Shown here one piece after another: positions 32,529-34,402 of a stretch of 34,402 nucleotides of DNA. The notes under the pieces are model-generated. The model saw only the letters and a list, made by a program, of their open reading frames with translations, searched no databases and was not told where the DNA came from. Numbering within the stretch: the first letter of the stretch is position 1; every line of letters starts with the position of its first letter. Both the position numbers and the translations under genes were made by a program. The stretch comes from an uncultured Caulobacteraceae bacterium (GTDB taxonomy: Bacteria; Pseudomonadota; Alphaproteobacteria; Caulobacterales; Caulobacteraceae): the NCBI GenBank assembly GCA_903870555.1, contig CAIQDO010000174.1, positions 1 through 34,402 on the forward strand. The letters run 5' to 3'.

Positions 32529-34402
32529 ATGGCGCGTCATCGGTCGCTGCAGCGGGCGATCCGGTCCCTCGTAGCTGGATTGGCGTGCCTTTGGGCCGCG
32601 CCATTGCTTGCCGCCCAGGTCATCACCGTCAACACCACGAGCCTGATCGTCGACGGCAATACCAGCAGTCCGCTTGCCCTGACGCTGAATCGCGGCGCCG
32701 ATCAGAAGATTTCTTTGCCGGAAGCCATCGCCGCAGCCAATCACGGCGGCAACGTGACGATTCATTTCCAGCTGCCTGCGGGAAGCCAGATCGTCCTGGC
32801 GGGGCCTTTGGAAATCACAGCGCCCCGCGTTGTGGTCGATGGCAGTTTGAACATCAGCGGCAAGCCTGGCGTCACGATACTAGGGCCGGACGGGCAGAAC
32901 AGCCTCCTGATCGGGGGCGCGGGCGATGCCGTGCAGAACCTGGCTGTTTCCGGCCTCGTCGTCGTGCCGCCGGCGGTCGGCGTACGGATCTCCAATTGCT
33001 ACATCGGACTCGCCGCAGACGGCGCGACCGCGCAAGGCCAGCACGTCAATGGGATCACCCTCCAAGATGTCCACGGCACGCTCATTCTTGCCAATGTGAT
33101 CGGGCACATCACCGCCGCCAACGGCGGTGTGAACAGAAACCTTTTCGGCATTGAGGCGGATGGAGGCGGCGACGCTCTCATCATCGGCAACTCTATCGGC
33201 GTCGACCGCAACGGCAATCAGATCCCCAACGATGTCGGCATCTGGCTGTCGGGTTCATCGAAGAACACGATCGGCGGCCCGCGCGCCGGGACCATCTGCG
33301 TCAGCCCCTGCAACCTGCTCAGTGGAAACGAGACCAACGCGATCATTATCGGCGGAGCCGGGAGCACCGCGAATGTCGTTGCAGGCAACTTTGTCGGCGT
33401 GCTGCCGACAGGGGTGACGGCGATGCCGAACGGCCGCGCGCGCGGCCTCTTTAATGCCCCTGCGATCGCCGTCGTCGACGGTGCGAACGGAAATCTCATC
33501 GGGGGCCTGCGTCTAAGCGCAACCTGCAGCGGCGCCTGCAATCTCATCTCCGGAAATGACGCCTCCGGCGTCATGGTCGCCGGCGCCGGCACGAACCTAA
33601 ACTCCATAACCGGTAACTTTGTCGGTACGACCGTAAGCGGCAAGGTGGCGCTCCCCAACCTGCTGCATGGCCTTGAGGTCGAGCAGGGAGCGACAGGCAC
33701 AACAGTCGGCGGAAACCGTACCGCGATGGCGTGCTCCGGCCCTTGTAACCTGGTGAGCGGGAACGGCGATTCAGGTGTCTTTGTCGCCAATGCCGGGACG
33801 ACCGGGGTGGTCGTAGCGGGGAATTTCATCGGAACGGATATTCTCGGCGCTGTCGCGCTGCCCAACCAGAACTTTGGTGTTGAAATCAATGGAGGTGCAA
33901 CGAAGGCCACGATCGGCGGCCCGCGCGCCACTCAATGCAGTCGAGCCTGCAACCTCATCAGCGGCAATCTGCGCAGCGGCATCTCGGCTTCCGGAGCGAA
34001 CGCCTCGATGTTCCTAACCGTGCGGGGGAATGTGATCGGCCTCGACGTCAGCGACGCCCATCCAATCCCCAACGGCGAAGCGGGGGTCACGGTGTCGAAT
34101 GGCGCGGCCGACGTTGTGCTCGGAGGCGACGCGCCGACGGGGGTATGCGCCTCGGTGTGCAACCACATCGCTTGGAACAGCAAGGGCGGCGCGGTCGTGC
34201 TGGGAGCCGCGACCCGGGCGAAGATCGTTGGCAACGCCATTCATGACAACGGAACCCTCGACATCGACCTCAACGGGGATGGCGTCACACCGGACATCGC
34301 GCCTGGTGGTGTCCAGCCCGGTCCCACGACCAATGAGGCCGTCGGTTTCCCCATGGGCGTGACCAGCACGGTCGATGGCGCCACCACGATTATTTCGGGA
34401 CA
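32529..34402 (+). CDS. Secreted right-handed parallel beta-helix repeat protein, 3'-truncated by the window edge; absent from the supplied ORF track
   Basis: Manual translation in frame 3 is open from ATG 32529 to the window end: MARHRSLQRAIRSLVAGLACLWAAPLLAAQVITVNTTSLIVDGN...ISLPEAIAAANHGGNVTIHFQLPAGSQIVLAGPLEI... followed by repeats such as TIGGPRA..C...CNLISGN..SGV.V.GAG......GNFVGT...G..ALPN....G. Confidence 0.9.
   Translation, partial: MARHRSLQRAIRSLVAGLACLWAAPLLAAQVITVNTTSLIVDGNTSSPLALTLNRGADQKISLPEAIAAANHGGNVTIHFQLPAGSQIVLAGPLEITAPRVVVDGSLNISGKPGVTILGPDGQNSLLIGGAGDAVQNLAVSGLVVVPPAVGVRISNCYIGLAADGATAQGQHVNGITLQDVHGTLILANVIGHITAANGGVNRNLFGIEADGGGDALIIGNSIGVDRNGNQIPNDVGIWLSGSSKNTIGGPRAGTICVSPCNLLSGNETNAIIIGGAGSTANVVAGNFVGVLPTGVTAMPNGRARGLFNAPAIAVVDGANGNLIGGLRLSATCSGACNLISGNDASGVMVAGAGTNLNSITGNFVGTTVSGKVALPNLLHGLEVEQGATGTTVGGNRTAMACSGPCNLVSGNGDSGVFVANAGTTGVVVAGNFIGTDILGAVALPNQNFGVEINGGATKATIGGPRATQCSRACNLISGNLRSGISASGANASMFLTVRGNVIGLDVSDAHPIPNGEAGVTVSNGAADVVLGGDAPTGVCASVCNHIAWNSKGGAVVLGAATRAKIVGNAIHDNGTLDIDLNGDGVTPDIAPGGVQPGPTTNEAVGFPMGVTSTVDGATTIISG

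Follow-up and report, generated by a model that had tools for sequence, protein, structure and literature searches.

Candidate C-x3-C disulfide staples in the enlarged loops of a predicted secreted bacterial beta-helix protein

There are few descriptions of beta-solenoids that are stabilised covalently, and the capping of solenoids by disulfides was called previously unrecognised in 2026 (PMC13288671). Fungal ice-nucleating solenoids are predicted to end in a C-x3-C disulfide (Cys968-Cys972), and reduction largely abolishes their activity (PMC13288671). The Chloromonas ice-binding protein is likewise a secreted beta-solenoid, and its predicted disulfides are grouped on the loop side (PMC4838330). 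In the fucoidan lyase FdlA, five Cys residues are stacked along a beta-helix (PMC9410043). A further group of secreted beta-helix proteins is characterized by a common bacterial repeat with the elements IGG, N-x-I-S-G-N and G-N-x-I-G-T-D. A profile of the repeats studied here matches this repeat in other Pseudomonadota, and by its repeat sequence the protein is assigned to this family, which consists of tandem units of approximately 60-70 amino acids.

The protein is encoded at the end of the window, i.e. the whole stretch of 34,402 nucleotides that was analyzed. It resembles the IGG / NxISGN / GNxIGTD proteins in repeat and predicted fold and carries an apparent export signal, but differs in one loop. 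In the relatives, this loop usually comprises 6 residues and is free of Cys (for example SGAGNG or DTTAAR), whereas in the window's protein it comprises 10-11 residues and contains C-x3-C in five of five units. Loops of the type C-x3-C-N[LV][IV]SGN are found at the equivalent place in the beta-helix proteins of two other genomes, G894 and G1095; in G894, however, only three of eight loops are of this kind, mixed with Cys-free ones. The likeness to the fungal proteins, which is taken from their description alone, is limited to a solenoid with a predicted C-x3-C disulfide, since their Cys residues are found at the solenoid ends only and not in each repeat. The Chloromonas protein has no periodic C-x3-C, and most of its predicted disulfides join distant Cys residues of different loops. 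FdlA contains single Cys residues inside the helix, without pairs or loop enlargement. The features of the gene are listed below; repeats were placed by profile match and alignment with relatives, and Cys loops by motif count, loop comparison and alignment.

32529..34402, + strand: gene of the predicted exported beta-helix protein; ATG at 32529, 624 amino acids, open to the contig end, C-terminus missing
32529..32615, + strand: putative signal peptide, about residues 1-29, MARHRSLQRAIRSLVAGLACLWAAPLLAA, read by eye from the sequence
32616..33263, + strand: N-terminal region with the first coils, which have no Cys loop; degenerate SLREA-like stretch KISLPEAIAAAN, lone C157; no Pfam or NCBIfam match
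33264..33491, + strand: repeat 1, two coils
33279..33311, + strand: Cys loop 1, PRAGTICVSPC
33492..33698, + strand: repeat 2
33507..33539, + strand: Cys loop 2, LRLSATCSGAC
33699..33905, + strand: repeat 3
33714..33746, + strand: Cys loop 3, NRTAMACSGPC
33906..34112, + strand: repeat 4
33921..33950, + strand: Cys loop 4, PRATQCSRAC
34113..34289, + strand: repeat 5, a degenerate unit with which the helix ends
34128..34160, + strand: Cys loop 5, DAPTGVCASVC
34290..34402, + strand: start of a putative post-helix region (DLNGDGVTPD...TTIISG), cut by the contig end and assigned from similarity to G894

In the translation of 32529-34402, the motif CxxxCN occurs at residues 257, 333, 402, 470 and 540, with spacings of 76, 69, 68 and 70 residues; the codons of the first Cys are located at 33297, 33525, 33732, 33936 and 34146. 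These positions and spacings agree exactly with those given in a sequence-only reading of the window, which had also noted recurring flanks; the elements IGG, N[LV][IV]SGN, GNF[VI]G and ALPN were found to recur here. In 20,000 shuffles of the protein, the mean number of motifs was 0.018 and the maximum 2, compared to the 5 observed. Ten of the 12 Cys residues of the precursor belong to the five pairs; the others are C20 in the putative signal peptide and the lone C157. An alignment of the units revealed an invariant Gly-Gly, both Cys residues, the following Asn and several Gly and Asn residues as conserved, and the identity of the other repeats to repeat 1 is 29-42%. Repeat 5 is degenerate (CASVCNHIAWN). 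A Cys-loop subtype was defined here by the presence of both Cys residues, directly before N[LV][IV]SGN, in a loop of at least 10 residues; all five loops of the protein are of this subtype, the fifth with the degenerate NHIAWN, as are five further loops in G894 and G1095. The lone C157 (window position 32997) is located in an early coil, in front of an x-IG stretch (ISNCYIG). Counterparts of this stretch (L169, L007) are VECSFIG and VRCSFVG in G894 and VLGCHIG in G252; the lone Cys of the early coil thus recurs even among distant relatives, independently of the paired Cys residues of the loops.

The N-terminus consists of a basic n-region, a hydrophobic core and an A-x-A end, as read by eye, and export of the protein is inferred from this signal peptide. 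After the helix, the protein of G894 contains a comparable type of sequence. With the C-terminus missing, an anchor, an autotransporter or an enzymatic domain would escape notice; a search for the C-terminus on other contigs yielded only a weak match interrupted by stops. The third-position GC content of the gene is 0.76, which is lower than that of seven of the eight other measured ORFs of the window (0.80-0.93), and neither 15 congeners nor 44 further relatives have the protein. Because of the low third-position GC content and the absence from the congeners, the gene may be a recent acquisition.

The protein has no match in Pfam or NCBIfam and no sequence relative in the PDB. In particular, it does not match PF13229 (Beta_helix), which is matched by two other proteins of the same genome. 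Structure prediction with AlphaFold from the single sequence (residues 30-624) yielded a pLDDT of 33. A second prediction was based on alignment A6, in which the five repeats are in register with L030, L078, L059, L071 and L049; the divergent L004 and L058 were left out, as an alignment including both lost the register in repeat 5. With A6, the pLDDT was 75.9 and the pTM 0.85. The protein is predicted to be a right-handed parallel beta-helix of stacked three-strand coils, the handedness being taken from PDB fold matches. The structures matched by the model belong to beta-helix proteins, among them polygalacturonase, AlgE4, DFA-IIIase, PfbA and tailspikes, with TM-scores of 0.12-0.51 and identities of 7-15%. 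The putative signal peptide, the pTM value and these matches support the proposal of an exported beta-helix, and the fold would suit secretion and a structural or adhesive role at the surface.

In the model, each unit of approximately 69 residues contains six predicted strands, in the order N-x-IGG, (Cys loop), N-L-I-S-G-N, G-V-x-V, x-x-I-x-G-N, F-V-G-T, G-L-E-V. A unit would thus comprise two coils, and not about three as assumed in the initial reading. The Cys pair sits in the loop between the IGG strand and the NLISGN strand, directly before the conserved Asn. Because this position recurs in every repeat, the pairs lie along one side of the helix, as had been anticipated. The model is least certain at the Cys loops and in the residues leading up to them, with pLDDT values under 50 for model residues 189-191, 258-262 and 327-330; these stretches coincide with loops 3, 4 and 5 or directly precede them.

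Opposite the additional residues of repeats 2-5, the relatives show gaps of 4-5 columns in alignment A6. At the position of repeat 1, the group of L030, L078 and L059 likewise has a long loop, which is Cys-free. At this loop, L025, from a genome of the window's class (G769), has a much larger insertion, GGTVYVDSSTGQANDPTGNKGTIVPPVLVTPPLGNLISGN, which lacks Cys; the loop therefore tolerates enlargement. Compared to Cys-free units, those with a Cys loop also tend toward a turn longer by about 2 residues between the G-V-x-V strand and the next one. This longer turn is possibly coupled to the Cys loop.

The repeat family as such is widespread in the order of G210, where it was found in 59 of 149 genomes with up to 23 matches per genome. 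In the window's own class, it was detected in two of 386 genomes, including that of the window. The contigs L030, L078, L049 and L059 from a viral collection encode close relatives of the helix, which are in register over the five repeats, as is the helix of the additional contig L071. In L030, LVIVD repeats (PF08309) are located upstream of the helix, the start resembles that of a lipoprotein, and there is a borderline match to PF13229; by its sequence, this contig looks bacterial rather than viral. Despite the abundance of the family in the order of G210, the member from G894 has no match in Pfam-A or NCBIfam.

The Cys loop is rare. A pattern search of 399 genomes of the phylum gave no verified other case (one match in G322 was set aside), and the same pattern identified two genuine cases, G894 and G1095, among the 378 genomes of the order of G894, which belongs to the same phylum as the window but lies outside its class. 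Pattern matches in G923 and G1239 were dropped, the reasons being an in-frame stop and an unrelated ORF. Plasmids and phages gave no match in protein searches, and no Cys-loop relative emerged from viral contigs that were scanned with the whole protein, the profile of the Cys loop and a GC-rich pattern for it. In what was searched, the loop is thus known from three proteins only. A scan of genome contigs returned only L004, which lacks Cys pairs; because this genome-wide scan used peptides of the whole protein, the true spread of the Cys loop is probably underestimated.

The Cys loops of G894 are CNNSC, CSGPC and CTGAC, those of G1095 are CNRSC and CSKAC. In the eight surveyed loops of the G894 protein, the order is none, both Cys, both Cys, none, none, and then none, both Cys, none, so that one Cys loop stands isolated, with a Cys-free loop on either side. 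G1095 has two consecutive Cys loops in a fragmentary frame. Outside the loop, the Cys units of G894 and G1095 are somewhat nearer to the window's units (37% vs 29% identity, p = 0.003, with few and non-independent units). This difference hints that the Cys units share an ancestor and did not arise several times.

The check for joint conservation of both cysteines that had been proposed with the motif was carried out on 111 distinct loops. Both Cys residues are present in 10, a single Cys in 0, and neither in 101. A length of at least 10 residues was found for 10 of the 10 loops with both Cys residues and for 9 of the 101 Cys-free loops (p about 2e-9, for repeats that are not independent). From the strict pairing and the coupling to the enlarged loop it follows that the two Cys residues act as one unit. 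The isolated Cys loop of G894 indicates that a pair requires no adjacent pair, which argues against a disulfide ladder between repeats or a shared metal site and for one disulfide per loop. Furthermore, with a rise of 4.8 A per coil of a beta-solenoid (PMC4838330), successive Cys loops, being two coils apart, are separated by about 9.6 A, and a direct disulfide between equivalent positions is therefore out of reach. The genome of the window encodes DsbB. Given the pairing, the isolated loop, the two-coil spacing and DsbB of the host, one disulfide per loop is the simplest reading. Each Cys loop is thus probably closed by its own C-x3-C disulfide, which would act as a stabilising staple. Once the protein has been exported and oxidised by the Dsb system, the two Cys residues of a loop would bond together and turn the loop into an independent, small closed ring that would be rigid and shielded against proteases or against fraying. 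With a Cys loop in every second coil, these staples would align along one edge of the rod without being linked to each other. A precedent is the C-x3-C disulfide predicted in the fungal solenoids (PMC13288671). It counts against such a staple that disulfide loops are more often longer than a C-x3-C ring, that model confidence is low at the loops, and that the loop is carried by three proteins only, within which the repeats are not independent.

Alternatively, the pair might be packed in the loop as free thiols, buried or exposed. There are precedents for this arrangement: FdlA contains an internal ladder of cysteines (PMC9410043), and in knotted solenoid proteins conserved adjacent Cys pairs are unbonded in crystal structures (PMC13123833), which also speaks against the staple. 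The cysteines of FdlA are, however, single residues inside the helix and not loop pairs, and independent thiols would need neither the strict pairing, with no single Cys in 111 loops, nor the coupling to an enlarged loop. Free thiols are therefore unlikely. Somewhat less likely still is a ladder in which neighbouring loops are cross-bonded from the second Cys of one to the first Cys of the next and the rod is stitched along its edge. Five pairs at the same position in consecutive units would fit a ladder, and so would the Chloromonas protein, whose predicted disulfides cross-link loops on one side of the solenoid (PMC4838330). In addition to the lone Cys loop of G894, the distance between adjacent loops, which is beyond usual Cys CA-CA distances, argues against it, and one Cys would stay free at each end. 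Very little credence is given to the binding of a metal ion or other ligand by each pair, alone or with the next loop. Two thiols with three residues in between would be a plausible partial metal site, but the pair is accompanied by no conserved His, Asp or third Cys, the isolated loop of G894 has no second pair, and an exported protein in a cell with DsbB tends to the oxidised state. The initial suggestion of a ladder of disulfides or metal sites is thus not supported.

Similarly improbable is the proposal that the one-per-loop staples form an evolved, modular, redox-controlled array, in which stapled repeats would be added or removed as a cassette and extracellular reduction would change binding or cleavage at one edge of the rod. 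The least credit is given to an enlarged loop that belongs to a ligand-binding or catalytic surface and is merely shaped by the Cys residues: the best PDB fold matches do include the carbohydrate-active polygalacturonase, AlgE4 and DFA-IIIase and the adhesin PfbA, but such matches come with the fold in general, at 7-15% identity and TM-scores no higher than 0.51, the repeats have no conserved acidic or basic catalytic set, and the non-Cys residues of the loop vary. Heme c attachment was rejected, as the pair is not followed by a His as in CxxCH, except by chance in repeat 5 (CNH). Twin-CX3C proteins consist of two facing helices; this identity was likewise rejected, as each loop here has one CX3C in a beta-structure.

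So far, the Cys loops tell little about the biology of the bacterium. Rather than a new kind of system, the Cys-loop helix represents a rare and apparently undescribed variant within a widespread family of secreted repeat proteins. If the staple reading is true, one C-x3-C staple per repeat, together with relatives in which stapled and Cys-free units are mixed, would provide a system for measuring the contribution of a staple per coil, and a stapled rod would aid the design of stable solenoids.
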